Source of the DNA: a virus | DNA: 30,243 nt | Virus record (IMG/VR): IMGVR_UViG_3300010151_000091 | Coordinates: 1-30,243 of that record | Reading direction: 5' to 3' (one strand) | Position numbers and translations under genes: made by a program | The notes under the pieces: generated by a model | Seen by the model: the letters and a program-made list of their open reading frames with translations, nothing else | Told to the model about the DNA's origin: nothing | Database searches by the model: none | Part shown: piece after piece, positions 246 to 27,938 of the stretch | How the letters are laid out: each line of letters begins with the position of its first letter | Position numbering within the stretch: position 1 is the stretch's first letter

Positions 246-1028
246 ATGGCTAAGAGAAGCAAAGGTGTAGTCGAAAGAGCAATAGTAACACCAGATAAGC
301 ACTTTCCTATGCACGATAAAAAAGCAATAAACGTAGTCTGTCAAGCAATAGAAATTGTAAAACCTGATACATATATCGATTTAGGGGATACAGGAGAATG
401 GGAACATTTTAGTACACATTATTGGAAAGGAAGAAATGCAAAACCCATGGAAGATTTAATTCCACTGTTAGACAAAGATGTTAAAGTTGTCAATAAAGGA
501 ATGAACCAAATAGACAGAGCATTAGATAAAGTAAATTGCAAGGAAAGACATTTTGTACAAGGCAACCATGAAGTATGGTTAGATAAATTTGTTATTCGAT
601 ATCCTTATTTAGGACAATATAAAACAGAGAATGCTTTAAAATTAGAAGAAAGAGGTTATAAATATTATCCTTATAATAAAAAAGATAACTTAAAAATAGG
701 TAAGTTAAATTTTACACATGGTAAATTTACTGGGAAATATCATTCTTTTCAACATATAGATGCATGGGGAGAAAGTATTATGTATGGGCATACTCATGAT
801 TTACAAAGATTTACTAAAACTCGTAAAGGAGGGACTATAAGTGCTTGGAGTTTAGGATGTTTAAAAGATATAGAACTAGATGAAGATTGGTTAGGTGGGA
901 GATTAACTAATTGGAATCATGCTTTTGCAATAATAGATTTTTATAAAGATGATAACTATAATGTTCAAATTGTAGAAATCATAAATGGAAAAACCTCATT
1001 ATGGGGTCAATTGATAGAAGGTAAATAA
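246..1028 (+). CDS. Calcineurin-like metallophosphoesterase
   Basis: The 260-residue product carries the ordered metal-binding motifs of the calcineurin-like phosphoesterase superfamily: D17-x-H19, then DLGD at 45-48, GNHE at 106-109, a histidine in FTHG at 156-159 and YGHTH at 180-184. These residues build the two-metal centre, so the enzyme is expected to hydrolyse phosphomono- or diesters; the substrate cannot be told. Length is normal for a single-domain member. ATG at 246 follows AAGGGG. It lies in the late block and is followed nine bases later by a virion-type gene, so it is probably expressed late. Phage homologues are often encoded near structural genes; whether it acts on DNA, nucleotides or a virion component is unknown. 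Confidence 0.9.
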   Translation: MAKRSKGVVERAIVTPDKHFPMHDKKAINVVCQAIEIVKPDTYIDLGDTGEWEHFSTHYWKGRNAKPMEDLIPLLDKDVKVVNKGMNQIDRALDKVNCKERHFVQGNHEVWLDKFVIRYPYLGQYKTENALKLEERGYKYYPYNKKDNLKIGKLNFTHGKFTGKYHSFQHIDAWGESIMYGHTHDLQRFTKTRKGGTISAWSLGCLKDIELDEDWLGGRLTNWNHAFAIIDFYKDDNYNVQIVEIINGKTSLWGQLIEGK

Positions 1029-3071: not shown

Positions 3072-3226
3072 TGGAACAAATAGGATTCTTTGCAAGTAAT
3101 TGGGAATGGTGCTTATTAGCTTTATATATAGTAGAAAAAGCTATTAAATTATCGCCTTCAACTAAAGATGATGTAGTTTGGGATATGATGATAAAACCTA
3201 TTGTTGATAAACTAAGAGGCAAGTAG
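3071..3226 (+). CDS. Small membrane-associated protein, 51 aa
   Basis: ATG at 3071 follows AAGGAG (3057-3062) and the frame ends at TAG 3224. The product begins MEQIGFFASNWEWCLLALYI, a hydrophobic segment flanked by tryptophans, then a polar turn (LSPSTKDD) and a second amphipathic stretch ending KPIVDKLRGK. It overlaps the preceding gene by one base and its stop overlaps the next GTG start by one base. It is the third short membrane-type protein in 1.5 kb, so it is another holin or membrane-adaptor candidate. I cannot place it in a named family. Confidence 0.6.
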   Translation: MEQIGFFASNWEWCLLALYIVEKAIKLSPSTKDDVVWDMMIKPIVDKLRGK

Positions 3227-6200: not shown

Positions 6201-9200
6201 TTGGGGACAATTTTATGACAAATGGAATACATATAAATTGAATTTTACAATTCCTACAGATGCAACAAATACAAGAGATTATATATTAAGAATATATGCT
6301 GGTAGATTTGGGTATACGAGTAAAACTGTTGTTAAAGCAAATGATTCTGTGATTCCAGATGGCAATAATGCATCTTCTAGATATCCTACTATGCAGGCTG
6401 TATGTATAGATAATATAGCTTTAGGAAAGAAAACTGGTGGAACAAGTGAAGATATAATATTAATGAGTGATAGTATAAAACCAACATCTGATGTTTCAGG
6501 GGAATCCTCAGTATATAGTTATTTAACATCTGGTGGTATATGGAATAAAGGATTTTTAAAGTGGAGATTTCCAAAGGCAGATACTGTATATAGTTATACA
6601 AATGGAATATTGAAAATGTCTGATGCTAATTTTGCAACAAACAATAACGATGTAATTTCTTATTTTTATTATAATAGACCTGTATTAGGTAATTATGATG
6701 TCAGTGGACATATGTTAACTGATAATCCTTTAGATTTTATTGAAGATGTTACTGTAACTCAATTTAAAGATTTTAATACTATTCCAGTACAAATAATGGG
6801 ATGTCATGAAGATATGTGGAGAGGTTATAGAATTGAATCTTTAAATACATTTTTAGATGTTCCAGATGTTGTTAGCCCTGCTCCTCTTAATTGGCATTAT
6901 ATGCAGTTTGATTGGAAAAAAACTATTATATCAAGTTATACAGATATATTGCAGAATTTACTTAATCAAAAATATCTTCAAAATATTCCAATTAAATATG
7001 TAGATATTACAGGTCAGAATCTTGCTACAAGACGTATGTCAAATCAAACTGATTCAGGAGGAACAGAATCTAATGGTCAATTTATGTTTGGAGGAACCAT
7101 TTCAACAGGAGAAGATGGAGCAGAAAGCACTACAATAGGCCATGTTTATAATAATCCTGTTATATTGCCTATTTCAGGTCTTGTTCCAAGACAATATAAA
7201 GGAGAAGATGTTCAAACTAGTATTGGTGGTGCACACCATCATCCTGACATTGATTTAATTGGGAATACATCTACTGGTGAGTTAGTTCCAGATGACCCAG
7301 CGGCTAGTCTTGTGCGTCATTATTTTTCTTACCCAGGATTAAAAGAAATTCCTAATCCAGATTTTGTCCCTCTACAAAGAGGCCTTCCTACTACAGATGA
7401 TGATACGGATGTAGGAGATGAGACAATCTTAATACCACATCCATATAGTGAAAATGGTATGTGTGGAGGAACAACTTTAACAGAATGTTTAGAATTGCAA
7501 TGGTCACATGCATCTACACCTGTTGCTATAGAACCAACAGAACCACCAGGAGATTTTTTAGGTCCAAGATATATGGCAGCTATGGAATTTGATTTAATAT
7601 TAAGTGCTTATGGGGCTTCGAGAGCAGAATCTACTGGAACAATAATAGGAGATGATAATGATTCTGTATGGAGAGAAGTTTTAGATTGTCCAATTCCAAA
7701 AATAAAAGCAACACTTCTTAGAATTCCTGAAGGTATTGAAATAGGGGATAATCTTTTGGATGGAATATTTGATGGTTCTTTAGTTTTAGATGATGAAATA
7801 TGTACACAGATATTACCTGGTACTGGAAAAACATTAAGGCAGAAAAAAGATGAAGGTGGAGATGATTTGTTCGGATATCATGATACTGAAGATGGTCATA
7901 CATTTTCATGTCATATTCCTTATAGATTTAATTTAGGAGTTCCAGTAGGACTTGATGGGAATAGAAGCGTTTTAACATCTTCAGATAATATGGCCCTTAA
8001 ACTTGAAATATTAGACCCTAAAAATAGTATAGGATACTTAGAGGCATTTATAGGCACATATCCAAATTCAGAGCCTACAGGAACAGCATATCATCATAGT
8101 TTAGGATATAATTTTTCTAAATGGGAAGCAAGATTCTACGAACAGTGGAAAGATTCTTCACTCGTATCTTGGAATGTTTCGGGGCAAGATATAAGTTTAA
8201 ATGTAGATTTTAAGGTTCCAAAGGATTCGAATAATCAAGAGATTTTAGATACCTCAGAAAGCTGGACAGATAGAATTTTTCAAGTTGGGTGTAGTACTGT
8301 TAATATATTTGATGAAGAGTCTGCGATATCTGTTGATGAAAACTTTAATGTTGGTGAAGATATTAAAATAGAAAGTAATCAGGCTCCTAAAATAGTTCTT
8401 TCTACTACCGATGCATTGCTTAAGCATGAGGCTATTAAAGGTATTAATATATACATGAAGGATAATGAATCTGATATTTGGTATTTACAAGCTAGTGTTG
8501 ATACTTTTAAAGGAACAATAAAATCATCAACTAATGGAAAAGAATTTCCATATACTTTTAGAAGTTATGGACAAAATGGTATTTTAGCAACAAATTATGA
8601 ACTTCCTGAAACATATCTTCTTAATTTTAATGAAATTGATAGTTATGAATCTAAATCTTTAGTATCTCAAGAAGATGGTTTAGTTCCTTCTAAATTAAAA
8701 TGCAGATATAAAACAGCTGTTCATTGTAATAATAGATTATATGTTGGAAATATAGAACAAGATGGTAGAGTTTATCCAGATAGAATGCTTAAAAGTCCTA
8801 TTGGTAAATATAATGTATTCCCAGCAAGTAGTTATATTGATGTTGCTATTAATGATGGTGATGAGATAACACATTTATCTTATTATAAAGATAAAATTTT
8901 ACAATTTAAAAGAAGAAAGGTTTTTGTTCTTAATATTTCTGGTGATTATGAATTTTTAGAAGATACATTTGATTATATTGGTGTATCAAGAGGATGTCAA
9001 GTTACTGATACTCCTTATGGAATTGCATGGGTAAATGCATCAGGATGTTTTTTATATGATGGAGAAAAATTAACTAATTTAATTTCAAATAAAATAGGAA
9101 CAGAAGGATTTCAATCTAATCCTGTTGGAACTACTACTAATTTTTGGATGATAGGGCATAAAGCTGATGACATTCCTGCTATTGGTTATATCGCCTCTAC

Positions 9201-10275
9201 ATCAAAATTGTTAGTATGTAGAGATGTTGGTTCTTATGAAGATACTATAAGTAGTAGTATAATAACTTCTATTCCTGAAGCATTTGAATATTCTTTTCAA
9301 TCAGAAGGGTGGACATTTTTATATAGAAAATTAACGTCACCGCCAAATACACAGGCTTATCTTAAAAATACAGGACAATTATCAAATTTTGTAAATGATG
9401 CAAATGGGCAACTTTTATATTATTCTGTTTTTGCTAGTGGTGATGCAGCTGCTAATGTTGATAGTGAGGGTTTTAGTCCTATAATAAATGGACTTTATTA
9501 TTGGGATGATATGCCTGTAAGGAATCAAGATGCTTTAGATGAGTATAATGAAAGTCCTTCGGATGCTAGGGTGGGTGCTACAGACCAAATTGGAGATTTC
9601 TTTTATTTAAGAACAAAGAATTTTAATTTTGGCTCTGCTCATGCAAGAAAGAAGATATATAAAGTTTATGTGACATTTAAAACTTCTGATGATACAGAGA
9701 GACAAAATACTGTTAATGACGCTAGTCCAGCTAATGAAGAAGTTAGAGATTCAAGAGTAAATGTTTATTACGCCACAAATGGAGAAACTCCAAATGTAGG
9801 CACTAATACATTTCTTCCTAGTGCTTCAACTAATTATGATAGTATTAGAGGTTTATATGCATCATCAGATAAGTCTGGTAATATAACAGCAGTAGCAGAC
9901 CATGCTGTTGGAAGTCATGATAATGATATTTTAATAACATCAGCAGCGCATGGATTAGTTAATGATGATGAAATATATGTAACAGGTACATCAGATTATA
10001 ATTCTAATTCACAAATTAATGGTTTTCATAAAATAACATATGTAACTGATGATACTTTTTATTATGAAGAAACTTTTAATGGGAATCAATCAGGAAAATG
10101 GGAGAAAAAAGGTGATGCAGGTTGGCATATTGCTGAATTAAAACCTACAAATGAAAGTGATGTAAATAATATATATTCATTTCAATTAGTTTTTCAATTA
10201 GCAGGAGGTAGAATAGCAAACAGATTTGAAATAAATGATATCACTATACTATATAGAATTAAACCTCCTAAATAA
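3226..10275 (+). CDS. Giant tail nozzle/stabilisation-like protein with carbohydrate-binding-like modules, 2349 aa
   Basis: The start drawn is GTG at 3226, overlapping the previous TAG; ATG at 3247 (MNAWKGLN) preceded by AAAGAG is a good alternative. The beginning (GLN..SEQSDIDDDEFSQNWNASLDKYG) matches the way podovirus tail nozzle or stabilisation proteins begin, and residues about 1846-1990, with repeated strand pairs around FPASSYIDVAINDGDEITHL and KRRKVFVLNISGDY, look like the propeller-like core of that group. The core is normally below 1000 residues, so over 1300 residues are inserted. These include a jelly-roll-like module at about 665-940 (NIIRNGDF start, GCWYDLYIKWDGGAW, closing VSVKK strand) and related strands near 1000-1070. 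A small beta-barrel motif occurs twice, near residues 398-462 and 2218-2298. Expected role: tail structure plus host-surface binding. Confidence 0.75.
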   Translation: MHKKEFHMNAWKGLNCFSEQSDIDDDEFSQNWNASLDKYGVVRFSGGGKKYGQNHPHTNTDFIPGGGLFAYSTDYVENIISSDFTVGHFVDYGVGYIKATPGTAVIELQNLSPSDSRYTIFNTPSYFDNMMIHIHKGPGKGQIRKIINWTGDGSDNDVGTSPRYATIDGAFGHKDHATTPITVSEIEGEDIRLKDVAKVRIWNTDIGVFGTKGLYASPEIGPEGFSTLIITDVIGRKLHLHFTDGDAATALAEPLMTSTTFEKCTSSDPASPFYGTDKVNTHYLINANNTAGVVVDNIVAAVTEATDGDNDYVHIAAVDCTTTASATNPAADVVLFKDDSGLGKGYCDIEYIGWFNKINMPGNSFEEYEEWWHGNPVAFNKSLDIYQPFTKGLGSTHVDDISKITVSGHQWQAGEYVSLKGITGKTAYNTTFRIEWVETDNIYVFTNGMGGSSSGGSIGFSSAQATTRVVQSGFTDKSYYKIYKWNFSPTGATSPWHQASSQTSALFSNVPHDETNTNLEVMIDSDTHTGTIFKKEIASSASPGLSPWNRIFTANTFIYSSGAPSAAVDAAQNKAVDLGYIEQTGIPLVPGESYQLSFDMNFLTSWKMWAADLGDSDILPGVLLYSPTAGSPDDVADGTERDLVLMSDNQWVRSNEPVSGDAIVPFSNIIRNGDFKEADVAHGDLAPYNYYALPDGSTDITNEDGDPGELGFWTVKAPTYPDTIDNSNRAFRYRLLKNEDAENVDYFGNDSTTPKSSVDGGFDGASCLAIRNSTTDLILGEDDLTEYYKTSYVYQNVQVDGGCWYDLYIKWDGGAWKDNSTIGLRYNVMCNEDVGIVQAGKSIIGGWSQKQHTSRRHSDDHLEYNSAITPIYRHIGQDAYINSNMTEADLRFEYQRFFVPEHTTTTNAVSIQIRISLDCVGSMHKQNRIFISAVSVKKSFPDLVHIAKENQENTYNKSLIPVLGVPKINGGEAFTSGIGSHGSYSRLDTVYNWGQFYDKWNTYKLNFTIPTDATNTRDYILRIYAGRFGYTSKTVVKANDSVIPDGNNASSRYPTMQAVCIDNIALGKKTGGTSEDIILMSDSIKPTSDVSGESSVYSYLTSGGIWNKGFLKWRFPKADTVYSYTNGILKMSDANFATNNNDVISYFYYNRPVLGNYDVSGHMLTDNPLDFIEDVTVTQFKDFNTIPVQIMGCHEDMWRGYRIESLNTFLDVPDVVSPAPLNWHYMQFDWKKTIISSYTDILQNLLNQKYLQNIPIKYVDITGQNLATRRMSNQTDSGGTESNGQFMFGGTISTGEDGAESTTIGHVYNNPVILPISGLVPRQYKGEDVQTSIGGAHHHPDIDLIGNTSTGELVPDDPAASLVRHYFSYPGLKEIPNPDFVPLQRGLPTTDDDTDVGDETILIPHPYSENGMCGGTTLTECLELQWSHASTPVAIEPTEPPGDFLGPRYMAAMEFDLILSAYGASRAESTGTIIGDDNDSVWREVLDCPIPKIKATLLRIPEGIEIGDNLLDGIFDGSLVLDDEICTQILPGTGKTLRQKKDEGGDDLFGYHDTEDGHTFSCHIPYRFNLGVPVGLDGNRSVLTSSDNMALKLEILDPKNSIGYLEAFIGTYPNSEPTGTAYHHSLGYNFSKWEARFYEQWKDSSLVSWNVSGQDISLNVDFKVPKDSNNQEILDTSESWTDRIFQVGCSTVNIFDEESAISVDENFNVGEDIKIESNQAPKIVLSTTDALLKHEAIKGINIYMKDNESDIWYLQASVDTFKGTIKSSTNGKEFPYTFRSYGQNGILATNYELPETYLLNFNEIDSYESKSLVSQEDGLVPSKLKCRYKTAVHCNNRLYVGNIEQDGRVYPDRMLKSPIGKYNVFPASSYIDVAINDGDEITHLSYYKDKILQFKRRKVFVLNISGDYEFLEDTFDYIGVSRGCQVTDTPYGIAWVNASGCFLYDGEKLTNLISNKIGTEGFQSNPVGTTTNFWMIGHKADDIPAIGYIASTSKLLVCRDVGSYEDTISSSIITSIPEAFEYSFQSEGWTFLYRKLTSPPNTQAYLKNTGQLSNFVNDANGQLLYYSVFASGDAAANVDSEGFSPIINGLYYWDDMPVRNQDALDEYNESPSDARVGATDQIGDFFYLRTKNFNFGSAHARKKIYKVYVTFKTSDDTERQNTVNDASPANEEVRDSRVNVYYATNGETPNVGTNTFLPSASTNYDSIRGLYASSDKSGNITAVADHAVGSHDNDILITSAAHGLVNDDEIYVTGTSDYNSNSQINGFHKITYVTDDTFYYEETFNGNQSGKWEKKGDAGWHIAELKPTNESDVNNIYSFQLVFQLAGGRIANRFEINDITILYRIKPPK

Positions 10276-13604: not shown

Positions 13605-14855
13605 ATGGCAGATAAAACTTACAATGCCTTAATGGCACAATCAGGGTTTAGTAATAATCCTTGGGAAGATTTACTTAATTTAGTTCAAAGTAATAATCAA
13701 CAACACATAGTTTCACAACAAGCTCAATCTGAGAATCAGAGAAAAAAGCTTGAATGGAACATGAAGCAAGAAAAATGGATTGAAGAAAAGCAAAAAAACA
13801 GGGAGACAAGATTAGCTAATGCTACTGATGCTTTAGATGATTTAGTAAAAAATACAATAAATCATAGTGGGTTTGTTTCAACTGGTTCTGTTGTTACAGC
13901 AACAAAAAATGCTGCCGCACAATCGAATGACCCAGCTGCTATAATTAATGCAGAAGCAACAGGACTTGCATATGAAGCAAATCGAAATGACCACTATAGA
14001 TATGTATCTGCGATAGATAATGGTGCTGATATAATTAATAGAATTGATACCTATTCAGATGCTGACTGGAAAAATCCAAATAAAATGACTGTTAATCATA
14101 TTATGAATGAGCTTAGAGCTGTTGATGAATTTGAATCTGCTTTATATACAGACCCAATAAAAAAAGACGCAGAGGTTAAATATATAGGTCATTATAGTTC
14201 TGGAGATAAAACTGACAGGTCTATCATTGGAAGAATGGCTGAATACAAGAAGTCTTTAAATGCTGCGCTTATGGCTTTAACTGATGAGGAACCTAGTGGT
14301 AAAAGAATGATAGAGGACCATGAACTTTTTTATGTTATTACAGGGAATGCTAAAGGATTAGAAAACGCAAGGGAAGAACAGACAGGTATTGCAGAGAGCA
14401 ATATTAAATCTTATACACGTTCAATTAATGCTATAGAAAAATATATAAAAATGGTTGGTCAAAAAGTTATTTCTGGTCAAATAAATGGAGGAGACACAGT
14501 ACCTTTTGATATGGCAAATATGATTGCACCATATGCTACTCAAGCTCAAGCGGATAATCCTGCATTTGCTGAAATGATGCCACAAGATATTGCTTCAGAG
14601 TTAGCCGCATCTTATATGGATTATACTATTGATGAGATTTTAGAATTATGGAATCAAGAAAAAAATGATTTAGATTTTATGAGAAGTAAGGAACTTGAAA
14701 GATATACTAGATGGAGTTTAACTGGAGCACAGTATTCTTTTCAGTCAGATTTAAAAAAGAAGAAGACTAAAGAAGAATTACAGCGTAAATTAGAAGAACA
14801 ATTACAGAAAAACCAAATGATGCAGAATGTGCCTACGTTTTTAGGCGGAAAATAA
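13605..14855 (+). CDS. Internal virion protein, gp15-like in position, 416 aa
   Basis: ATG at 13605 follows AAGGAG. The product is largely alpha-helical, with a glutamine/glutamate/lysine-rich coiled coil at about 35-70 and another at the C-terminus (about 385-412, KKKKTKEELQRKLEEQ). There are no cysteines and no enzyme motif. Helical, cysteine-free proteins of this size directly before the largest virion protein are typical of podoviral internal core proteins, which are ejected ahead of the genome and line the periplasmic tube. The next gene begins at the base after this stop. Assignment rests on position and composition. Confidence 0.65.
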   Translation: MADKTYNALMAQSGFSNNPWEDLLNLVQSNNQQHIVSQQAQSENQRKKLEWNMKQEKWIEEKQKNRETRLANATDALDDLVKNTINHSGFVSTGSVVTATKNAAAQSNDPAAIINAEATGLAYEANRNDHYRYVSAIDNGADIINRIDTYSDADWKNPNKMTVNHIMNELRAVDEFESALYTDPIKKDAEVKYIGHYSSGDKTDRSIIGRMAEYKKSLNAALMALTDEEPSGKRMIEDHELFYVITGNAKGLENAREEQTGIAESNIKSYTRSINAIEKYIKMVGQKVISGQINGGDTVPFDMANMIAPYATQAQADNPAFAEMMPQDIASELAASYMDYTIDEILELWNQEKNDLDFMRSKELERYTRWSLTGAQYSFQSDLKKKKTKEELQRKLEEQLQKNQMMQNVPTFLGGK

Positions 14856-17800
14856 ATGTCCTTAGATTTATATACAAATTTCGATAAGCAGGGGGTTATT
14901 GATATTATGAAGCAGAACTATGGCGAAAAGAAAGATTTGCCTGATTCTGCATATTATAATATGGCTGTTGAAATGTTCCCTGAAATGAATCTTCCTGAAT
15001 GGGGAAAAATAGTAGACCAACCAACAACTTATACCTCAAATCCTGATGATATAGACCTATCTCCAGACCATGTGAATACTATCTATGGTGTTGCAAAACA
15101 GAGTACTGGTGATTTTATGGAATCAATGAAGGCTAAAGTATGGGATGAGGATAATATGCCTCCAAATCCTTTGTTTAACAAACTTGGAACTGGTAAATAT
15201 GAACGTGATACAGGTAGCCTTATGCAAGCTCTTGTTGAACCAGACTCTTGGGTCTCTCCATATATTCCAGATAAATTAAAAAAATCAGTAATGATAGGAC
15301 TTAATAATTCTTTTACAGGAAGACAATATGCTACAGAAAATGGTAAAGAATTATATGATACTAATTTTGAAGATTATGACCCTAATTTTGGCAACCATCT
15401 TGCTTCAATTGCAGCATCAATGTCAGACCCTGCAGGAATAGCTAATATGTATGCTACTTTTGTATTTGGTGGAAGTGCTCATAAAGTTGCATGGCAAGGT
15501 TTAAAAAATATTCCAAAAATTGTTTCAAAATGGTGGCAAAAATCAACAGGTAGATATATTGTAAAATCAATTCCTAAAACAAAAACTTCTTCTGGTTTAA
15601 GAAAGACTATTCAAGAGAAATTTAGCTCTGATGCTGTAGCTTACGGAACTGGTGGTTTTGGGACATTTGGGGCCTCTATGGCAGCGCAACAATCAGCGAG
15701 AGACCAAAGAATGAATTATGGAAAATATTCTACAAACAATGGAACAATAAATAGGTGGGATATTATTAATGATGCTTGGGATGGTTATAAAGAACATGCT
15801 ACAACTGGTTTTCTTTTATCTGGGGTAAGTCAAACGCTCGGCTTAACTAATATGTGGGCAAATGCTAAATGGAAAATGGGAGCAAAGAATTATAAGACAT
15901 TTGCAGCAAAAGCTGTATCTAATCCAGCTTCCAGCATTGGCATACAGGGAACAATATTTACAACCGCTCCAATGGTTTTAAATGAAGATATAAGAAAAGA
16001 ATATTATGACCCAGAAACTGGGGAGTTTGACTTTAGTAAATTTGTGGCAAATGTAACGTTAAATTCAGCAGTTGTTGCAGGCTTCTGGGGATTACATAAA
16101 CTTAATATGCCTAAGCAAGATAAAACAACAGGATTATATAAAAGAGAATCATTTAAGTATGATGTAAAAGATACAAGAGAAGTTAAAGGTGAACATACAA
16201 CATATTCTGCTGAACCTATGACTAAATATGATGCAGCAGACCCAGGTACTGCAATCATTCCAAGAAATAGAAATATTCCTAGAACATTAGAAAGTATAAG
16301 CACAAAAGTTGTAAAGGATATTAAACATGAAACAAATAAAAGTATTGATTTAGAATATACTGGAAACGAGAGTGCAAAACTTTTAACTCAAAGTATTAGT
16401 AATATAAAGAAAGAATTAGGTCCAGAGACTCCATTTGAATTCTTTGAAAAAGATATTGATGTTAAAACTGAACCAGTTGAAACTGTTCAAGGATTAAAGA
16501 CTATAAAAGAAGTTGTTGATAATACACTAAGGATACTTAACAAGGCTGGTACTAAGAATAAAGATGGTGATTATGTTGGATTTGATTTAAAGAAGATTTC
16601 AGGTGAAGATATCGCATATATTAGCACTGTTATGCCAACAGTTGTAAGAGCATATCAAGGATATAAATTAGATTCTTATGAGACTGATACTGGTAGAGCA
16701 GAATACATTAAAAGATTTCAATCTGAAGAGAATGGTGGCAGAGCATTAACAGATGCAGAAAAAAAGACTTTATTAAAAGCACAAGAAATAGAGATTAATA
16801 GGTATGATATATTATCTAAAGATTTAAATACAAAATTAACACAAGGATTATTTAAGTCTGAGCAAACTCAAAAGATTACTGAGTCAGAGCTTGATGAACC
16901 AATGGTTGATATTGTTGCTACAAATGATGCAGGAAATCCTATTAATGGAGATATTTTAACAGTTCCAAAAGAAGAAGCTGATGCCTATGTAAAACAAGGT
17001 AAAGCAATCACAAAAGTTTCTGCTGAAAAACAAAACATGAGGATTGGAGAAGTAGAATCTATGAACCATGGTCAGGTTGCACCTAAAGATTGGGCTGAAA
17101 CAAATGAAATGATAGCATCAGCTGTAGAAAAAGGGATATTAAGGACACAGGATGTAAGTGAAAATATTCCTAAAAATCAATCTCAGTATAAAAAAATAAT
17201 TAAAGGTGTAAAAGGAGACGAGCTTGAAAAAATACCAGAGCTTAAAAATAAAAAGGCAGCTTGGAGTAATATAACAGAACCATATGATGTAAAGATTTTA
17301 AAAGATAATTTCAGTGGAGCAGAATTAGCAACAAGACTCCCACCTATTAATAAAATATTAGGAGCATCTGGAAAGAGAAGTATAACTGAGTTAACTCAAA
17401 AAGATGTTACAGATTTTTTAGATAATCTTAAAAAAACAAAGCCTAAGATAAAAGGTATAGAACCTAATATGACATCAAATATTACGATTATATTTAATGA
17501 ATTAAGAGATAAAGGTTTTATAAAAACAGTTCCTCTTTCAGCGAAGAGAGCTAAAGAATATACATCTGAATATAATGAGCTTATGAAGGCTGCAAAAGTA
17601 CCTTTACCTGAATTAAAAGCATGGTATAAAGGTATACCTGCAGTTAAACAATTAATGAAGAATGATAAAGCTTTTGTTAAAGGAGTTGAAATTATAGAAA
17701 CATATCCTATAAGAGCAGAAGAGATAGGAGCATTAAGAGGAAGACACATAGTCTTACACCAGCCAACAGGACAATATTATATTGATTTGACGCAGAAGAG

Positions 17801-20800
17801 ACCTTTTGGTGCTGCTAAAGCTAGAGGTGTAAAAAGACCTGTTGCTATTCCTAAAGAACTTGCACTTGAATTACAAAAACTTTCAGGAGGCGACCCAAAT
17901 AAATTATTATTCCCAGGATTTACAACTAAGTTAACTGGTGCTAGTAAAAAAGTATTAGGAAATGTGACATCAAAGGCTTATAAAAAACAAGAAAAAACTT
18001 TTGCTGAGAGAAAAGCTAATCTATCACTGCAAGAAAGAGATGTTTATAATGTAATAGCTGGACATGCAGAACCTAAAGACCCTAATATATTAGCTATTTA
18101 TAAAGAACAAGAAAACTGGGGTGATTTGTTTAAACTACAAGAGCATGTTATTCAAAAGGTTGCAATGGCAAAACAAGAATTTATGCAAGAGCCGAGTCGT
18201 GCTCAGAAAGCTGTAGGAGCTGTTCAGAAAGGTTTAACTTCAGGACTATCAATTAAAGACGTTAGTGGTAAGGAGCCAGAAGGCGTAATTAAAATGGTTG
18301 AGGATGATATTAAAGGTGGGGCAACACTTAGTGATGGTGTTAAAAAGAAGCTTGTATCATCTGTTAATAGCGTATTTAATGAATTAACAAAGGATATGAC
18401 AAGTGTTGAGAGAAAAGAATTAAAAGCATTTTATGCAGCAAATGCAGGTATTGACAATCCATCAGACTTTAAGATTAATAAACATGCATCAGAGGCAGAC
18501 TTAGCTTTATTTGCTGATGAAATAATTGATACTCCTGTAATGAGAGCTGTTGATAGAAAGAATACAGCAAGAAGATATAAAAATATTACTAAAGCAAGAG
18601 AGATTTTTGAAGTCAATGATTATAATGAAAAAGCACAAAGCATGTTATTACATAAGATGTTTTTCCCAGAAAGAGATATTGCTGATGTTAATCTTTTAGA
18701 ACTTTCTCATAAACAATCAACAGAACTTCTTGATTATATGGATAACAGTCCTTATTTCAAAGAATATGATGCTTTTGATTATGTTTCAGATGCTCTTAAT
18801 GTTGAAAATATAGGTAAATTATCAAGACAGTTAGGAAAAGTAGAGAAGAGAGCTTTACAACTTGGTTTCCATGGGACTGTTCAATATGCATTTCCTTGGC
18901 TTGCAAAAAGACTTAATGCTCCAGAGTTAATTCAAGTAGGGCAAGATTTAATTGACCATGGAGTAATAGAATTAACACAAGGAGCTAAACTAAAGGGCTT
19001 TGAAGAATCTGTTTATAAAATATTATACGAAGATTCAATAGAAAAAGGGAAAACTATATTTGCTTTAAGACAAGGTAAAGAAAAAATCAAACATGGTCTT
19101 TCAAGATTTAATAAAGAAGTTAAGGATAATATATGGAGCCTTCATCCAGAAAGATATGAATGGCTAGCTAACCATGCAAAAAAACATCCAGAAGATAAGG
19201 TTGGTGTTGAGAGATTTAAAAAAGCTAAAAAGTTTTACGATAAAATATATGATAAAGATGGCAATCTTAAAATAGATACCATAGAAAATGATATAGCAAA
19301 GTCTTGGTATGAATATACTCAAAACGATGTATGGGGTAATATTTATTTATCTATAAGGTCTAATATGACAGAGGCTGGTTATGAATCTTTTATTAAAAGA
19401 TATCCGTTAAAAGAAATAAGTGAACATTTCTTTGTTCCATTAGCAGTAACACAAGAATTCTTAAAATCCTACGATGTTAATTCATTAAATTTAGATAAAC
19501 AAATAAAAGATTTTACTTTAAAACATGCTCAAAAATTAGCAGAAGCACATTATGGAAGGGCAGATATAACACCTAAAGAGCTTGATAAATTTATGGATAA
19601 AGGAAGAATACTTGCGCATGAAGATATACGGGCAATATCTAGTTTTGGTTTAAAAAGATTTAATCCTAAAAATCTTATAAGAAGAAAGATGTATCTTGGT
19701 GAAAGGTTATATATTGCTAAGGATAATAAGTGGATTGACGCATATGAACATCAGTATGATAAATATATTCCTAACTATGCAGCATCTACAGCAAAACTTA
19801 TTGCAAATTTAAGCAAGTTCCCTTATCTTGTTCAGCTCCCAGGGTTTAAAACTAATAAAGCAATAGATAGAATATTGTTAGACTTAAGCCACAGCAAAGG
19901 AGATTTTGTGGGGAATTATATTCATGATATGATTTCATCAAGAACAGGACTTTCTACACCAGGAGAAAGCTCGTTTATATGGGGAGATATAGGAAGAGCT
20001 ATGCAAGGAATAAACAAATATATATCACGTGCAAATCTTACAAGATTAATATCTCCAACAAAGAATTTTCTGTTAGGATTTAACAATAATTTCCTAGCAT
20101 ATGATGCTCCAGATGTTCTTCATAAAACTTGGTTGGCTATGAGTTTTGCAAATAGAGTGCAAGCAGAAGAAACAGGAATGATGGGGTTAAGTTATGCAGC
20201 TTTAACTGAAGGCGACAAGTACATCACAGTACGTGGAAAAAAATATGAAAATCCAGTTAATAAAATACTTGACGTTATATTTAATTCTGTAAGATTTCCG
20301 ACAACTGAAGCTATAACTAGATTATCTTCTATTTATCTTACTTTAGATGATATGGTTAGAATGACAGAAGGATTAAGAAGTTCTAAACCAGAAGAAAGAG
20401 CTAGATGGCTTAATAGAGCAAAAGATAGATATGCATTAAGTGATAGACAGGTTGAACTACTTACTAAATACGGCCTTAGTCCAGCAGAAGTTGATTGGAA
20501 AGGAAAAGAATCTATCACAGCTAAAGGAGTTAAAGCAAAAAGATTACAAAAGGTACAAGATGATGTAAATTTACAAAGAGAGCTTGATGTGCTATGGTCT
20601 AAGATGATTACGATGGGGCATACAAAAACACAAGGCTCTACAACAGATATATGGCAGCCACAAATGATGCTAGACCCTGTTGTAAAAGGAGTATCTTTAT
20701 ATAATCAGCTCGCTATATCTGCAACGTATAATACTATTAATGGAGTAAAGGAAAATTATAGAAATGGAAACTGGCATAGGACTTTTGCCTATCATGCCTC

Positions 20801-21800
20801 AATACCCATAACAGCTGGTATTCTAGGATATGGTATAAATCAACTTATTAAGGGTGCACCTCCCCCAGATGAATTAGAAACAAAAAAAAGAAAGAAAGTA
20901 TTTAATATGTTGAAGCTTTCTGAATATGGAGGTGCTTTATCTTTCTTTTGGAGAGTATTAAGTGGTCAGCCGACATATGGAAATCCAGTTTTTCCAATGG
21001 CTGCAATTCAGCAAGGTGGACTACTTTTTAAAACTCTTATGGACGCTATAAGAGCAGGGGTTGAGAAAGTTGGTATTGAACCTGATAATCTAGGAGGTTT
21101 TGGTAGATACTTTGTTAGGAATGCAAGGTATAATCAATCACCAGAAGAGTTTATGAAATCAGTATTTGGAATTTATGATGATTACAAAACAACAAAAGAA
21201 AATCAGACGCATCCATATAAGAAGAAGCAGAATAGAATTGAAAAGTGGGAAAAATACTTTTATGACAATGTTAAACCTATATCATCAAAACCTGAGATTG
21301 TTTCAAATACAATTATGACTGGCTATTATAAAGAAGTTAAAGATGCATTTGAAATGTCAGATGATTTTAATTGGCTTAATGAGGTAATAATGGATACATG
21401 GTGGGCAAGGTATGGTGAATTCATTAAGGCAAACTATACTCCAGATGGAGCAGCAGAAGCAGCAAACAATGCCATTGAAGCCAAACTATTAGCATTGAAT
21501 CCTATTCTTAATGGCATTGGTGCAGGTGAAAATGAGAATAATTTAAAATGGTTTGATACGAGAACAGAATATCTTGGATATCTTATGAACGTAGCAAGAG
21601 AACAAGGCAATCCAGAGAATACATATCTTTCTCCAATATTAGAGCAAGAGGTAGCTTATAAAGTTAAGATTGCTCAATGGGAAAAACAATTTCCATATTG
21701 GCTTAGACAAAACTATAAAAAAGATGACTATAAAAAATACTGGAGTAGAATTCATCCAGAATCATGGACTAAATTAGGACTACCTGATTTAAACCCATAA
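14856..21800 (+). CDS. Giant internal virion protein with an embedded tyrosine-recombinase-like domain, 2314 aa
   Basis: This is the last late gene and sits where T7-like phages place their largest ejected core protein (gp16 in T7, about 1318 aa), but it is almost twice as long. Hydrophobic stretches occur near residues 175-210, 330-370 and 1980-2000; most of the rest is helical and charged. I see no lytic transglycosylase motif at the N-terminus, unlike T7 gp16. Residues about 835-1085 have the order of a tyrosine recombinase: a core-binding helical domain, box I with R953, K981 on a hairpin, GH at 1069-1070 and Y1082; the HxxR motif is not recognisable. Its end overlaps the convergent gene at 21789. 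The domain may let this ejected protein bind DNA; that is inference. Confidence 0.75.
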   Translation: MSLDLYTNFDKQGVIDIMKQNYGEKKDLPDSAYYNMAVEMFPEMNLPEWGKIVDQPTTYTSNPDDIDLSPDHVNTIYGVAKQSTGDFMESMKAKVWDEDNMPPNPLFNKLGTGKYERDTGSLMQALVEPDSWVSPYIPDKLKKSVMIGLNNSFTGRQYATENGKELYDTNFEDYDPNFGNHLASIAASMSDPAGIANMYATFVFGGSAHKVAWQGLKNIPKIVSKWWQKSTGRYIVKSIPKTKTSSGLRKTIQEKFSSDAVAYGTGGFGTFGASMAAQQSARDQRMNYGKYSTNNGTINRWDIINDAWDGYKEHATTGFLLSGVSQTLGLTNMWANAKWKMGAKNYKTFAAKAVSNPASSIGIQGTIFTTAPMVLNEDIRKEYYDPETGEFDFSKFVANVTLNSAVVAGFWGLHKLNMPKQDKTTGLYKRESFKYDVKDTREVKGEHTTYSAEPMTKYDAADPGTAIIPRNRNIPRTLESISTKVVKDIKHETNKSIDLEYTGNESAKLLTQSISNIKKELGPETPFEFFEKDIDVKTEPVETVQGLKTIKEVVDNTLRILNKAGTKNKDGDYVGFDLKKISGEDIAYISTVMPTVVRAYQGYKLDSYETDTGRAEYIKRFQSEENGGRALTDAEKKTLLKAQEIEINRYDILSKDLNTKLTQGLFKSEQTQKITESELDEPMVDIVATNDAGNPINGDILTVPKEEADAYVKQGKAITKVSAEKQNMRIGEVESMNHGQVAPKDWAETNEMIASAVEKGILRTQDVSENIPKNQSQYKKIIKGVKGDELEKIPELKNKKAAWSNITEPYDVKILKDNFSGAELATRLPPINKILGASGKRSITELTQKDVTDFLDNLKKTKPKIKGIEPNMTSNITIIFNELRDKGFIKTVPLSAKRAKEYTSEYNELMKAAKVPLPELKAWYKGIPAVKQLMKNDKAFVKGVEIIETYPIRAEEIGALRGRHIVLHQPTGQYYIDLTQKRPFGAAKARGVKRPVAIPKELALELQKLSGGDPNKLLFPGFTTKLTGASKKVLGNVTSKAYKKQEKTFAERKANLSLQERDVYNVIAGHAEPKDPNILAIYKEQENWGDLFKLQEHVIQKVAMAKQEFMQEPSRAQKAVGAVQKGLTSGLSIKDVSGKEPEGVIKMVEDDIKGGATLSDGVKKKLVSSVNSVFNELTKDMTSVERKELKAFYAANAGIDNPSDFKINKHASEADLALFADEIIDTPVMRAVDRKNTARRYKNITKAREIFEVNDYNEKAQSMLLHKMFFPERDIADVNLLELSHKQSTELLDYMDNSPYFKEYDAFDYVSDALNVENIGKLSRQLGKVEKRALQLGFHGTVQYAFPWLAKRLNAPELIQVGQDLIDHGVIELTQGAKLKGFEESVYKILYEDSIEKGKTIFALRQGKEKIKHGLSRFNKEVKDNIWSLHPERYEWLANHAKKHPEDKVGVERFKKAKKFYDKIYDKDGNLKIDTIENDIAKSWYEYTQNDVWGNIYLSIRSNMTEAGYESFIKRYPLKEISEHFFVPLAVTQEFLKSYDVNSLNLDKQIKDFTLKHAQKLAEAHYGRADITPKELDKFMDKGRILAHEDIRAISSFGLKRFNPKNLIRRKMYLGERLYIAKDNKWIDAYEHQYDKYIPNYAASTAKLIANLSKFPYLVQLPGFKTNKAIDRILLDLSHSKGDFVGNYIHDMISSRTGLSTPGESSFIWGDIGRAMQGINKYISRANLTRLISPTKNFLLGFNNNFLAYDAPDVLHKTWLAMSFANRVQAEETGMMGLSYAALTEGDKYITVRGKKYENPVNKILDVIFNSVRFPTTEAITRLSSIYLTLDDMVRMTEGLRSSKPEERARWLNRAKDRYALSDRQVELLTKYGLSPAEVDWKGKESITAKGVKAKRLQKVQDDVNLQRELDVLWSKMITMGHTKTQGSTTDIWQPQMMLDPVVKGVSLYNQLAISATYNTINGVKENYRNGNWHRTFAYHASIPITAGILGYGINQLIKGAPPPDELETKKRKKVFNMLKLSEYGGALSFFWRVLSGQPTYGNPVFPMAAIQQGGLLFKTLMDAIRAGVEKVGIEPDNLGGFGRYFVRNARYNQSPEEFMKSVFGIYDDYKTTKENQTHPYKKKQNRIEKWEKYFYDNVKPISSKPEIVSNTIMTGYYKEVKDAFEMSDDFNWLNEVIMDTWWARYGEFIKANYTPDGAAEAANNAIEAKLLALNPILNGIGAGENENNLKWFDTRTEYLGYLMNVAREQGNPENTYLSPILEQEVAYKVKIAQWEKQFPYWLRQNYKKDDYKKYWSRIHPESWTKLGLPDLNP
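17358..18116 (+). other. Tyrosine-recombinase (integrase)-like domain inside the giant virion protein
   Basis: A core-binding-like part comes first: ITELTQKDVTDFLDNLKK at about 843-860, then NITIIFNELRDKGFI, the pattern of integrase SAM-like domains. A catalytic-like part follows: TYPIRAEEIGALRGRHI (R953, box I), YYIDLTQKRPFG (K981), a basic strand ending KRPVAIPKELALEL, then NKLLFPGF and IAGHAEPKDPNILAIYKE (H1070, Y1082). The spacing from H to Y is 12 rather than the usual 9, and no HxxR triplet is seen before the GH motif, so strand cleavage looks unlikely. The reading frame is continuous through it. Confidence 0.65.
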
Positions 21801-22853: not shown

Positions 22854-23322
22854 TAAAGTACTCCTCCCTTGCGTAATGTGTTATTAATATTGCATCAGCT
22901 GTTGCTAGTGTAACCTTTTTTAATTCAGGGTACAGCTCTTTAGCTTTACTTTTAAGCCAATTCTTTCTATCCTTTACAATCATACCTTTAGGACATCCAA
23001 TCCATTTAATCCAATCATTCGGTAGTGTTGTATACATCTTAATCTCATGAGACGCAGCGATACCAAGCCACTGACCATAATTAACCCCATATGTAAATGC
23101 TGCACGTGTTGCATTCATTGGTCTTGCCCACACTCTCTCCATTAAAAGATTAACTTTATCAGGAGCAGTGTTTCCTATTGCTATTTTAAACAATATTGAC
23201 ATATCAAATACTTTATCAGGACACTTATATGCACTTGCTTTACCTGTCTCATCTATTACCATTAGACCGCCACTTTTTCCAGGGTCTATTCCTATATATT
23301 TACTTGAACGGAAGGGTGTCAT
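22843..23322 (-). CDS. RuvC-like Holliday junction resolvase, 159 aa
   Basis: The N-terminus KYIGIDPGKSGGLMVID carries the first catalytic aspartate (D13) of the RNase H-like RuvC fold. NLLMERVWARP gives the glutamate (E62) at the end of the fourth strand, and ATADAILITHYARE gives the C-terminal aspartate (D143). Length is that of bacterial RuvC. The enzyme would cut four-way junctions made during replication and recombination so that concatemers can be packaged. ATG at 23322 follows AGGAG, and the gene overlaps the helicase gene by 23 bases. The strand lies in the same block as annealing, SSB and nuclease genes. Confidence 0.85.
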   Translation of the reverse strand: MTPFRSSKYIGIDPGKSGGLMVIDETGKASAYKCPDKVFDMSILFKIAIGNTAPDKVNLLMERVWARPMNATRAAFTYGVNYGQWLGIAASHEIKMYTTLPNDWIKWIGCPKGMIVKDRKNWLKSKAKELYPELKKVTLATADAILITHYAREEYFNEK

Positions 23323-24640
23323 CTAACATTTCTCCTATTGAATTATGTATTTTACATTTATCTCCATCATATCCTAGGTCCACAGTGCCACTGTCTCCAT
23401 ATCTAACCTTACCTGCACACAGAGTTAAAACATTCTTTCCTTTACCTTTTTCTCCTTGAACCTTGTAGTCATAATATGAAAAGAACACATTCTCTGCGAC
23501 TTGCTCTATTGCACCACTCTCTGCTAGGTCTGATAACTGTGGCATCAGAGCCTTGCCTCTTGTACCTGCTCTTTCAATAAATCTATTTAATTGTGATGCA
23601 AGGACAACAACAGCCTGAGTATCCTTTGCTAACCACTTATAATCATTAACAAGCTTCTCTATTTGCAGCCTTCTTTGGTCTTCTTTACCTTTACATGTAA
23701 TTAATTGAATATAATCATCAAATATTATATCTGGCTTAAATCTTTTAATCTCACTTGATGCGGATGAAAAGTCTCTGACATTGTCAAACATTAAAAACTT
23801 ATCCTTTGAATATTTTTCTTTAACAAATGCTATTGCTGTATTGAAAGACTTTATATCTTGTTCGCTGAATGTATTTTTACGTACAGTACCATAAGATAAC
23901 TGCTGTGACTCTAGGCATATGATTTTCTTTAGTAGTTCTGAGTTTGGTAGTTCTCTACTGAAAAATATAGCCTTATGTCCCTGCTTTAGAACATTAGATA
24001 ACATGTTAATCATAACAGTTGTCTTTCCATGTCCTGGTCTACCACCTATAATAGTAATTTCACCTCTTGTTAACCCTCCAGCAAATCTATCTATATTATC
24101 ATAGCCTGTTTTAATCAGCTTTGTTGTTTTATTTTTAATACTATCTACAGTATCATTTATAACATCATCTATATCAGATGCTATAGATGGTCTCGTGTTT
24201 AATATTTCACCTAAAATAGAGTGTGTTTCACTAACAGACTGGTATATATCGTGTGAGTTATGTTTAGCTTTATTTTTAATTTCTTCTGCTTTAACGATAA
24301 CTTGTCTCATGAGGAACTTATCATACAACTTACTTGCATATAACTCAGTCATACCTTTAAGACATGTATCTCCTGTGCATCCAACAACATAATAATGTGT
24401 TAAACCTCTATTTATATCATACTGTGTTAAGGACATCGAAACTGTTCTAGTGTCTATTAGTTCCTTCTTAGCCCTCATCTCTTTTATTTTACTCCATAGT
24501 AGCTTTGCCCTGTCCTGATAGAAAACTTCTATATTTGTAAAATATTTTGAAACTGCCTCGTACTCACCTTCATTATTAATCACAGAGCCTAATACAGCAT
24601 CTTCCGTAACCTTATCATACGGCAATGAACTTTCTTTCAT
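23300..24640 (-). CDS. DnaB-type replicative helicase, 446 aa
   Basis: Residues 1-150 resemble the DnaB N-terminal domain (EDAVLGSVINN near 13-23). The RecA-like domain has Walker A GGRPGHGKTT at 199-208, Walker B IIFDD at 305-309, an ASQLNR segment at 348-353 and the DLAESGAIEQ motif at 371-380, all in DnaB order. Length is normal. It would form the hexameric ring that unwinds the phage fork. ATG at 24640 follows GGGGGAG. No primase domain is fused and no loader or polymerase lies in the window. It overlaps the RuvC-like gene downstream. Confidence 0.93.
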   Translation of the reverse strand: MKESSLPYDKVTEDAVLGSVINNEGEYEAVSKYFTNIEVFYQDRAKLLWSKIKEMRAKKELIDTRTVSMSLTQYDINRGLTHYYVVGCTGDTCLKGMTELYASKLYDKFLMRQVIVKAEEIKNKAKHNSHDIYQSVSETHSILGEILNTRPSIASDIDDVINDTVDSIKNKTTKLIKTGYDNIDRFAGGLTRGEITIIGGRPGHGKTTVMINMLSNVLKQGHKAIFFSRELPNSELLKKIICLESQQLSYGTVRKNTFSEQDIKSFNTAIAFVKEKYSKDKFLMFDNVRDFSSASSEIKRFKPDIIFDDYIQLITCKGKEDQRRLQIEKLVNDYKWLAKDTQAVVVLASQLNRFIERAGTRGKALMPQLSDLAESGAIEQVAENVFFSYYDYKVQGEKGKGKNVLTLCAGKVRYGDSGTVDLGYDGDKCKIHNSIGEMLDDTLPFK

Positions 24641-25936: not shown

Positions 25937-26567
25937 CTTCCGCTCCAGAATTGCTGATAACTTTAACTTCCCCATTTGGCCATTTGTTAACCCATTTAAC
26001 ATCATGGAATCTTCTTTTGTTTCCATTTTTGTCAACAAATTCTCTGCCTAAATCAACAAAAGCTATACAAGGCTTACCAAGTATATCTTCTGGTGATAGT
26101 GTTGGGAGTAGTTGAACTTCAACATCTTGCCCATCAATGTTTCTTTTTTCAACAGGACACTTAACTCCAACAACCTCACAGAACCTTAAAAAGGTGCCAT
26201 TTGCATCAGATTTTGATTTAAAGGTATCATCCTTGCCTGGTTCTAAGAACCTCCATAATTTACCTTTAAACTTGTATCCCTTATACTCCTTACCATCAAC
26301 TTCTTCAGGATTTCCATCAATACCAGGTATTGTGTACTTAACTCCTGCATTATGCTCTGATGCTTGAAATGTATAAGTATAAAGTCTTGCTTTATGCTCA
26401 CCACCTTTAACATCAACTACTTTTGATTCACATTCAATAATATGACCAAAGTATTCACCTTTTGCTCTTGGCTTAAACTCCCTATCTTTCTTTTTAGGTT
26501 TATCACCAGGAACAAAGAAGCTATCTTCTCTAGTATTACTATCAAACATTTCATTTACGTCTGCCAT
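25920..26567 (-). CDS. Single-stranded DNA-binding-like protein with SSB-type acidic tip, 215 aa
   Basis: The protein ends in GAEDEIPF, the same acidic-hydrophobic tip (DDDIPF type) that bacterial SSB uses to recruit partner enzymes. The body (about residues 35-200) is beta-rich with many aromatic residues and lysines (GEYFGHIIECESK, KGKLWRFLEPGKD, FHDVKWVNKWPNG), suitable for an OB-like fold binding single strands. ATG at 26567 follows AAGGAGG and overlaps the stop of the annealing-protein gene by one base (TGATG). Being coupled to that gene fits joint action in strand exchange. Classical SSB signature residues in the core are not obvious, so the fold is inferred. Confidence 0.7.
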   Translation of the reverse strand: MADVNEMFDSNTREDSFFVPGDKPKKKDREFKPRAKGEYFGHIIECESKVVDVKGGEHKARLYTYTFQASEHNAGVKYTIPGIDGNPEEVDGKEYKGYKFKGKLWRFLEPGKDDTFKSKSDANGTFLRFCEVVGVKCPVEKRNIDGQDVEVQLLPTLSPEDILGKPCIAFVDLGREFVDKNGNKRRFHDVKWVNKWPNGEVKVISNSGAEDEIPF

Positions 26568-27142
26568 CACTTCCCTCCTTCTTTCTTGCTTTCTTTCATG
26601 TCTCGTATCTTATCCATACAGGCTTCGTAGTTGTTAGCATTAATATTCATACTAGCAACTTTACTCTTCAAATCATCAACAAGTTCTTTCCCTAAAGGTT
26701 TAGCAAAATCATACAGATTGTCTTCTTCTTTAGGTGTTAAAGCATCAGGCTCAGGTAAATCCTCACCTGCATAGATATATAATCCTAATCCATGTAATGC
26801 TACAGTTTTAGCTAATGCTCTCTGTATACTTGTATTAATATGAAAGTTAGTAGGTTTTTCTATCGGTTGGTTTCTATTGTCAAGTACAGGATGGATTTGT
26901 GATAAATTAATACCATCAACATCTACCCATACATCAACAAAATAGCCACATTCTGTAGCAAAAAATGGCGAACCATTCTCTGCTTTCGTTACTCCGTATC
27001 TTGCACTAGGACATTCTTTTTTTAAAAATGCCCACGCATCTGCCCAAGACAAATAAGTAAAATTCCCTTTCTTCTTTTGGTATTTACTTACATCTGTCTT
27101 AAAGAGTTTCATAAAAGTGCTTTTCTCACTCGCTTTGCTCAT
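26567..27142 (-). CDS. DUF1071-family single-strand annealing protein (Sak3-type recombinase), 191 aa
   Basis: The first 130 residues follow the DUF1071 pattern closely: VSKYQKKKGNFTYLSWADAW near 18-37, then ECPSARYGV, GYFVDVWVDVDG, HPVLDNRNQPI and TSIQRALAKTVALHGLGLYI ending YAGEDLPE. Members are phage annealing proteins thought to act like Rad52/Red-beta, pairing complementary single strands during recombination-dependent replication and repair. The C-terminal 60 residues are a charged helical tail. It is followed by the SSB-like gene with a one-base overlap and preceded by a Cas4-like nuclease, the usual partner set. ATG at 27142 has an AAGGAG site. Confidence 0.85.
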   Translation of the reverse strand: MSKASEKSTFMKLFKTDVSKYQKKKGNFTYLSWADAWAFLKKECPSARYGVTKAENGSPFFATECGYFVDVWVDVDGINLSQIHPVLDNRNQPIEKPTNFHINTSIQRALAKTVALHGLGLYIYAGEDLPEPDALTPKEEDNLYDFAKPLGKELVDDLKSKVASMNINANNYEACMDKIRDMKESKKEGGK

Positions 27143-27152
27143 ATCACTCTCC

Positions 27153-27938
27153 TTATCTTTGCGGATTACAATGGTCTAGAAACTGACAATATTTACATTG
27201 CCAATCTTGTACAGGTGAAACACCTGTTCTAAACGGAGGTAATCCTTGTTTATGTTCATCATTTACATTCTTCCAGAACAAGTAGGCTCTTGAAATATAT
27301 GTGAGAGGTACCGACACTGCTCTCATCATTGATGTATCCTTGTTATAGTAATACAAAAACATTCCATCAAGCCTACCAAGTTCTTCTTTTACTGCATATC
27401 CATATGTCCCTAATTGAAGCTCATAGTGTATCGATGGATTAAAACTGGGTTTTCTCCCAAATTTCAACTTCCAAGAATATCCTCCACACGTCTTCAAATC
27501 ATATAGATAAACTTCTTCACCTTCAGCAACAATATCATAAAAGCCTCTTACATTTAACTCTTCTATTTTAATCTCTTGCTCAGTGTGAAACTTTAATTCT
27601 TTTTCTTTATTATTAATTTCTTTTTTATTATTAGTTATATCTCTATTAGTTATATCTCTATTATATATATCTCTATTATAGTGCGTAAGAGCTTTTTCAA
27701 AATCATCGTGCACAACATTACCCAATCTTAAAAGTCTTTTAGTCTTTTCATCAATTGGATTTGATGGCTCTGCTCTTTCTACTGATTCAAAATATATTTT
27801 CCTTGAACAACCACCAGCACCAGAAGCGTGGTACCAGCTTTCATTACCCTTGTATCGTTTTAAGCGGTTATCTTCCTGTTTTTTATCGATATAATCGTTG
27901 TAGATACCCTCTATATCAATCGGACTATTTACGGCCAT
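27153..27938 (-). CDS. Cas4/RecB-type PD-(D/E)XK nuclease with probable iron-sulphur cluster, 261 aa
   Basis: Motifs in order: C44 in GAGGCSRKIYFES, H76 in LGNVVHDDFE, D134 in RGFYDIV, D146-x-K148 in YLYDLKTCGG, the QxxxY motif at 174-178 (ELQLGTYGY), and C248, C251 and C257 in WQCKYCQFLDHC. Four cysteines in this 1+3 arrangement are the iron-sulphur site of Cas4 and AddB-type nucleases, and the rest is their catalytic core. With an annealing protein and SSB downstream, it is expected to resect DNA ends for phage recombination rather than to serve CRISPR, as no array or cas genes are present. Residues 88-102 hold a five-residue repeat (NRDIY/T). The start overlaps the RHH-like gene by 14 bases and has a weak ribosome-binding site. 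Confidence 0.85.
   Translation of the reverse strand: MAVNSPIDIEGIYNDYIDKKQEDNRLKRYKGNESWYHASGAGGCSRKIYFESVERAEPSNPIDEKTKRLLRLGNVVHDDFEKALTHYNRDIYNRDITNRDITNNKKEINNKEKELKFHTEQEIKIEELNVRGFYDIVAEGEEVYLYDLKTCGGYSWKLKFGRKPSFNPSIHYELQLGTYGYAVKEELGRLDGMFLYYYNKDTSMMRAVSVPLTYISRAYLFWKNVNDEHKQGLPPFRTGVSPVQDWQCKYCQFLDHCNPQR
27630..27674. repeat. In-frame 15-base tandem repeat, three copies, inside the Cas4-like gene
   Basis: Plus-strand units are ATTAGTTATATCTCT (27630-27644), the same again (27645-27659) and ATTATATATATCTCT (27660-27674), followed by a partial ATTATA. Each unit encodes five residues (NRDIT, NRDIT, NRDIY) on the minus strand, in the stretch between the helix with H76 and the catalytic strands, so gain or loss of units would keep the frame. 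Confidence 0.8.

Follow-up and report, generated by a model that had tools for sequence, protein, structure and literature searches.

A recombinase domain within a giant late phage protein

The 30,243-base IMG/VR virus record IMGVR_UViG_3300010151_000091, analysed here in its entirety and referred to as the window, raises the question of whether a tyrosine recombinase, normally encoded by a separate gene and expressed after infection, can be built into a giant late phage protein and, if so, whether it still acts on DNA from there. The original prediction had placed an integrase-like segment at residues 835-1085 of a 2314-residue protein, whose gene is the final one of the forward-strand late block according to the open reading frame (ORF) listing of the window. 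An AlphaFold model and a family profile agree that a domain is present in this region, but extend it to about residues 812-1110 (window 17289-18185). The protein and the parts of its domain are as follows, with residues given as amino acids (aa):

14856-21800, plus strand: giant late protein of 2314 aa with the central recombinase domain (ORF listing; synteny with the giants of relatives).
17289-17570, plus strand: core-binding domain, SAM-like and helical, aa 812-905 (AlphaFold helices H2-7, H10-27, H37-50 and H61-74; weak Phage_int_SAM_4 and SAM_1 matches in relatives).
17577-18110, plus strand: catalytic domain with tyrosine-recombinase fold, aa 908-1085, boxes in canonical order (profile, AlphaFold and structural matches).
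18108-18188, plus strand: long helix past the tyrosine, linking the domain to the remaining protein (model helix 274-300).

Searches with the single window protein revealed a match of the segment to phrog_1 (integrase; E=5e-4) among the PHROG profiles, and no recombinase match in Pfam or among PDB sequences. A profile of ten domain members, run against 177,635 PDB sequences, returned XerA (5hxy, 7e-4) and an archaeal Xer (4a8e, 5e-3) as its top two matches, and the corresponding segment of one relative, L042, matched Phage_integrase (2.3e-4) along with weak SAM-like matches. AlphaFold2, supplied with residues 812-1120 and 14 sequences, produced a domain model with a predicted local distance difference test score (pLDDT) of 86.3 and a predicted template modelling score (pTM) of 0.68. 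Comparison of this model with the PDB yielded 34 matches at E <= 0.001, and all 34 are tyrosine recombinases, mostly Cre/Tre and also Brujita Int, archaeal Xer and XerA. In the VIA comparison, Brujita Int reached Z 12.9, archaeal Xer 11.1, lambda Int 10.8 and Cre about 10; type IB topoisomerases had values of 8-10. The structural matches span the core-binding and catalytic parts alike, and the helices modelled for aa 812-905 bear out the earlier proposal of a SAM-like core-binding part. The domain carries a net charge of +20.

The motif string from which the segment had been recognized recurs, in loose form, when the giant protein is shuffled (30 of 2000 shuffles) and by itself is therefore only modest evidence; the ten-domain alignment is too divergent for a pattern search. 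Profile, structure and conservation, the latter detailed below, nevertheless agree, and the segment is a true tyrosine-recombinase, that is DNA breaking-rejoining, domain. Profile search and structure prediction, two of the checks proposed in the original prediction, thus recovered the recombinase fold within the giant late protein.

Relatives of the giant protein and conservation of the active site

No relative of the giant protein was detected in 50,697 phage records, nor did the protein's own peptides retrieve one from IMG/VR. Relatives were reached only via the neighbouring DnaB gene, which led to 50, later 72, IMG/VR contigs (numbered with the prefix L), many of which encode a giant protein of ~1.9-2.9 thousand aa at the equivalent place beside the DnaB gene. 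The giants nearest to the window protein are those of L016 (44% overall identity), L008 (36%) and L031 (25%). In the comparison with L016, conservation is highest in the catalytic part, with 71% identity as compared to 42% in the rest of the protein. The L016 record encodes TerL, portal, major head and tail-spike proteins and we thus regard these viruses as tailed phages; the L016 portal had no relative among the phage records. Ends overlap in several of the near-full related records, suggesting circular maps.

A search of 35 related records with PF00589 gave six matches, all of which lie within the giant ORF and all of which score under the curated cut-off; no stand-alone integrase was detected in these records, some of which are fragments. 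Likewise, matches of two family profiles in 45 records were confined to the giant ORF.

To assess the active site, we used a 14-member alignment of canonical domains, whose identities to the window domain range from 16 to 64%. Only R953, E956, G1069, H1070 and Y1082 are invariant in this alignment. Among the 230 fully occupied columns, these five invariant ones all coincide with catalytic-signature positions (hypergeometric probability about 4e-9). The active-site elements of the window protein are:

17712-17723, plus strand: box I with R953 (Arg-I) and E956 (RxxE), invariant in the 14 canonical homologues.
17817-17819, plus strand: hairpin lysine K988, Lys in 12 of 14.
17973-17984, plus strand: box II, substituted, with K1040 at the His-II and K1043 at the Arg-II position (ungapped alignment with L063).
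18060-18065, plus strand: box III, G1069-H1070, invariant.
18099-18101, plus strand: Y1082, candidate nucleophile, invariant.

R953, the LLFPGF string, G1069-H1070 and Y1082 were hence located at the positions originally assigned to them, and the spacing between His and Tyr is indeed enlarged, amounting to 12 rather than the usual 9. Conservation among homologues, which had been suggested as a test, holds for R953, H1070 and Y1082, but K981, initially taken for the hairpin lysine, varies; K988 occupies this role. The assertion that the HxxR motif is missing likewise needs correction, as box II is substituted instead: the window sequence V-T-S-K-A-Y-K-K-Q-E-K-T aligns without gaps to L-T-A-K-A-L-R-I-A-I-K-T of L063, which places K1040-A-Y-K1043 at the box II positions. 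The Arg-II position is Arg in 10 of the 14 members and Lys in the window protein, L016, L008 and L031. None of the 14 has His at the His-II position, which is filled by K, T, Y, F or D. Because the window protein carries Lys (K1043) at the Arg-II position, we class the domain as a variant of the tyrosine-recombinase fold superfamily rather than as a proven recombinase, its recombinase role being putative. A small minority of family members naturally carry Lys at Arg-II, and Cre(R292K) remains capable of recombination (PMC4499138).

Possible catalytic activity and roles

In the reading that we favour, a tyrosine-recombinase domain comprising core-binding and catalytic parts was fused mid-way into a giant late protein in a clade for which no separate integrase was detected. 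Y1082 would most likely still cut and rejoin DNA, with Lys replacing both His-II and Arg-II. The domain would probably reside on a virion protein that meets phage DNA at packaging or enters the cell alongside it; virion location and ejection are suggested by gene position and protein size. The target would be the phage's own genome, for end joining, resolution or torsion relief, and not a host integration site. As a whole, this reading of a catalytically active domain on a virion protein acting on its own genome has, in our estimation, an even chance of being correct. The sequence comparisons make a catalytically capable domain somewhat more plausible than a pure DNA-binding module, because Arg-I, Glu, His-III and Tyr are invariant, the hairpin Lys is nearly so, Arg-II persists in most relatives and Lys in its stead does not abolish recombination by Cre. 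The species-genome search described below counts weakly against a plain integrase, and the most likely role would therefore be that the domain works on the phage's own DNA during packaging or entry.

Several observations weigh against this interpretation. Box II of the window's clade is off consensus at both positions, so that activity may have been lost. Inverted repeats in the stretches examined provided no convincing candidate for a recombination site. End joining has other routes, as several related records map circular and the window encodes a Sak-type annealing protein and a nuclease. Finally, the catalytic part is not essential everywhere, because L040, L044 and probably L083 are devoid of it.

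The view taken in the original prediction, namely that loss of HxxR had reduced the domain to a catalytically dead DNA-binding module holding or organizing the genome, draws on the same Lys residues at both box II positions of the window's clade, and also on the loss of GH in some permuted relatives (see below) and the retention of the core-binding part alone in L040 and L044. The phage proteins SroF and YopR appear among the structural matches, and MrpR, as YopR is also named, retains Lys and Tyr without recombinase activity, its Tyr mattering for DNA binding (PMC10516654). However, MrpR has lost Arg-I and box III, whereas invariance here is confined to Arg-I, Glu, Gly-His and Tyr, with Arg-II preserved in most relatives, and the conservation of Arg-II, Tyr and, with few exceptions, Arg-I in the permuted members points to catalysis as well. 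We therefore judge a dead module to be a serious though rather unlikely explanation. Chance resemblance of motifs in an unrelated helical domain could account for the lack of a Pfam recombinase match in the window protein itself and for the sub-threshold Pfam matches of its relatives, but is hardly conceivable given the agreement of profile, structure and conservation.

Fold and residues of integrase type, together with the lack of any other integrase gene in the 35 records, would also suit an integrase carried in the virion, which would insert the phage genome into that of the host immediately upon entry. No attachment site was found, though, and a search of 84,980 species genomes with the helicase used as anchor retrieved no near relative, its matches being DnaB proteins at just 24-28% identity; the latter is weak evidence, as the hosts may be uncultured. 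In our view, this role is improbable. A similarly low probability applies to a swivel resembling type IB topoisomerases that relieves torsion during DNA entry or packaging. Topoisomerase IB chains are among the structural matches (Z 8-10), and topoisomerase IB has Lys at the His-II position, as does the window domain; yet the recombinases are the closer structural matches and a core-binding domain is present.

An apparently permuted form of the domain in relatives

In about half of the relatives, box I is located after the tyrosine. The order in these giants, which comprise the L011 group, L069, L082, L070, L077, L028, L068 and L067, is core-binding part, hairpin Lys, Arg-II, (G)H and Tyr, followed by a helix-hairpin-helix that ends in a TGPRLNE-like box I. 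Three examples are listed with the coordinates of their own records; about 15 further loci carry a domain of this type.

L069, 16064-17041, minus strand: permuted domain, box I (alphaA-alphaB-RxxE) 3' of the tyrosine in order.
L011, 8523-9590, minus strand: permuted domain, box I after the tyrosine.
L028, 16003-17055, minus strand: permuted domain, box I after the tyrosine.

Across 15 permuted members, Arg-II and Tyr are among the invariant residues and Arg-I is near-invariant; some permuted relatives lack GH. Sixteen copies of the C-terminal piece have the Arg as their sole invariant residue, with a near-invariant Glu at +3. The front part of the permuted domains begins at an LRWxDID-like stretch, which by our own comparison comes after box I in standard enzymes, and the PF00589 match in L069 starts at model position 43. 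A 'GLRxxxI' string preceding the hairpin was considered as the permuted box I and rejected: it aligns ungapped with the post-box-I LRWxDID stretch, which agrees with where the PF00589 match of L069 starts, and its Arg varies.

The homology between the relocated piece and a canonical box I also shows up directly in profile comparisons. Positions 263-320 of the permuted profile match canonical L043 (E 9e-4), and the top two matches of a short box I profile among the non-permuted giants, L043 820-844 (0.036) and L023 24-57 (0.24), both fall on the canonical box I helix, each being weak singly. The moved segment alone retrieved no recombinase in profile searches of PDB and Pfam and gave no significant result with hhalign. 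Residues 640-965 of the L069 giant were modelled by AlphaFold2 with pLDDT 82.0 and pTM 0.70, the two box I helices reaching pLDDT ~88-95. This model had no significant Foldseek match. With a sequential aligner, recombinases were matched up to the tyrosine region and the box I helices were left unaligned, as expected for a permutation. It appears likely that the catalytic domain of these relatives represents a natural circular permutation, which would bring R303 into proximity of R173 and Y210 in the L069 model. A tyrosine recombinase with a natural circular permutation is not known to us, and a literature search of titles and abstracts returned no paper on one.

Exchange and loss of the module

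On a tree built from the last 900 residues of the giants, the four module labels require 10 changes as compared to a minimum of three, and the sister pair L042/L069 carries different modules, canonical and permuted, respectively. The module thus behaves like a cassette that can be exchanged. L040 and L044, which form one clade on the tree, lack the catalytic half and retain the core-binding half:

L040, 12455-18133, minus strand: giant without catalytic half.
L044, 6108-12206, minus strand: giant without catalytic half.

The L083 giant probably lacks the catalytic part as well. Many relatives furthermore have a zincin-like HEXXH motif ~100-260 residues past the tyrosine, for instance at aa 1119 of the L011 giant, aa 1168 of the L004 giant and aa 1061 of the L042 giant, and the motif is absent in the window protein, its clade and L063.

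Taken together, it is a scenario with roughly balanced prospects that this clade of tailed phages incorporated an active tyrosine recombinase, as an interchangeable cassette, into a giant protein of the virion, and that the catalytic domain became circularly permuted in ~half of the clade, with alphaA-alphaB and box I placed behind the tyrosine.

Relation to known systems

The window domain shares the core-binding and catalytic fold, as well as the order of RxxE, hairpin Lys, GH and Tyr, with XerA/XerC/XerD, lambda Int, Cre and Brujita Int. Unlike these stand-alone enzymes, it is embedded at residues 812-1110 of 2314 aa, features K..K in box II and an H-Y spacing of 12, and continues into the rest of the protein through a long helix. 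A PDB chain labelled RaiA (9i5v_14) has a tyrosine-recombinase-like sequence (GLRRSEI ... HVLRHSF); this label may be wrong.

The polyvalent proteins of phages and conjugative elements (Iyer et al. 2017, PMC5512222) are multidomain giants with enzymatic modules that are injected with the DNA, and a zincin metallopeptidase is their hub, most common but not universal (PMC5512222). The window protein resembles them in its giant size and in its one recombinase-fold domain. The likeness to polyvalent proteins that had been proposed is supported by the many relatives with HEXXH. The window protein lacks this motif, as does its clade, and a Pfam search detected no LPD domain in it. Neither recombinase nor integrase is mentioned in the main text of Iyer et al. 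(0 occurrences; PMC5512222). With T7 gp16-type internal virion proteins, the window protein shares only its position as a giant that closes the late block in a tailed phage; Pfam and PHROG searches revealed neither a gp16-type match nor a transglycosylase domain, and assigned no domain outside the recombinase domain.

The closest functional parallel is VLF-1 of baculo- and nudiviruses, a tyrosine-recombinase family protein that is a component of baculovirus virions (PMC3649998), and nudiviral VLF-1 is among the BFVD matches; in contrast to the window domain, VLF-1 is a separate small protein of insect viruses. According to a 2024 paper (PMC11654684), tyrosine recombinases are not implicated in virion formation in viruses other than baculo-like ones. 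MrpR (YopR) of SPbeta and SroF of phi3T, both structural matches to the window domain, illustrate that phages use the recombinase fold outside recombination. They are, however, stand-alone regulators, and MrpR, a repressor, has lost Arg-I and box III (PMC10516654), both invariant in the window family.

If virion-borne, a recombinase in a late giant protein could act before phage gene expression or during packaging, and would be the phage equivalent of VLF-1 in baculoviruses. Natural experiments are moreover available within the clade: Arg-II has been replaced by Lys, the catalytic half has been lost while the DNA-binding half persists, canonical and permuted forms have been exchanged on one scaffold, and the neighbouring metallopeptidase motif is either present or absent. 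With natural circular permutants, one could also test in what ways the active site of a tyrosine recombinase can be put together. Both tyrosine recombinases and polyvalent-like giants are known kinds; what is possibly new is the building of a recombinase domain into a giant late protein and, in relatives, a potential natural circular permutation.

Genomic neighbourhood

The genes surrounding the giant gene include:

13605-14855, plus strand: 416-aa protein immediately 5' of the giant gene, kept in the nearest relatives L016 and L008 (tblastn).
23300-24640, minus strand: DnaB-like replicative helicase, the anchor for finding relatives (phrog_19, 2.4e-61; DnaB_C, 7.7e-45).
26567-27142, minus strand: Sak-type annealing protein (profile matches).
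27153-27938, minus strand: PD-(D/E)XK nuclease (profile matches).

With the latter two, the phage has homologous-recombination genes of its own. The block that ends with the giant gene contains a second giant ORF of 2349 aa (window 3226-10275, plus strand), for which PHROGs, Pfam and the phage records gave no convincing match. Upstream of the giant genes lies a metallophosphoesterase-like gene (window 246-1028, plus strand; phrog_221, 3.6e-25).

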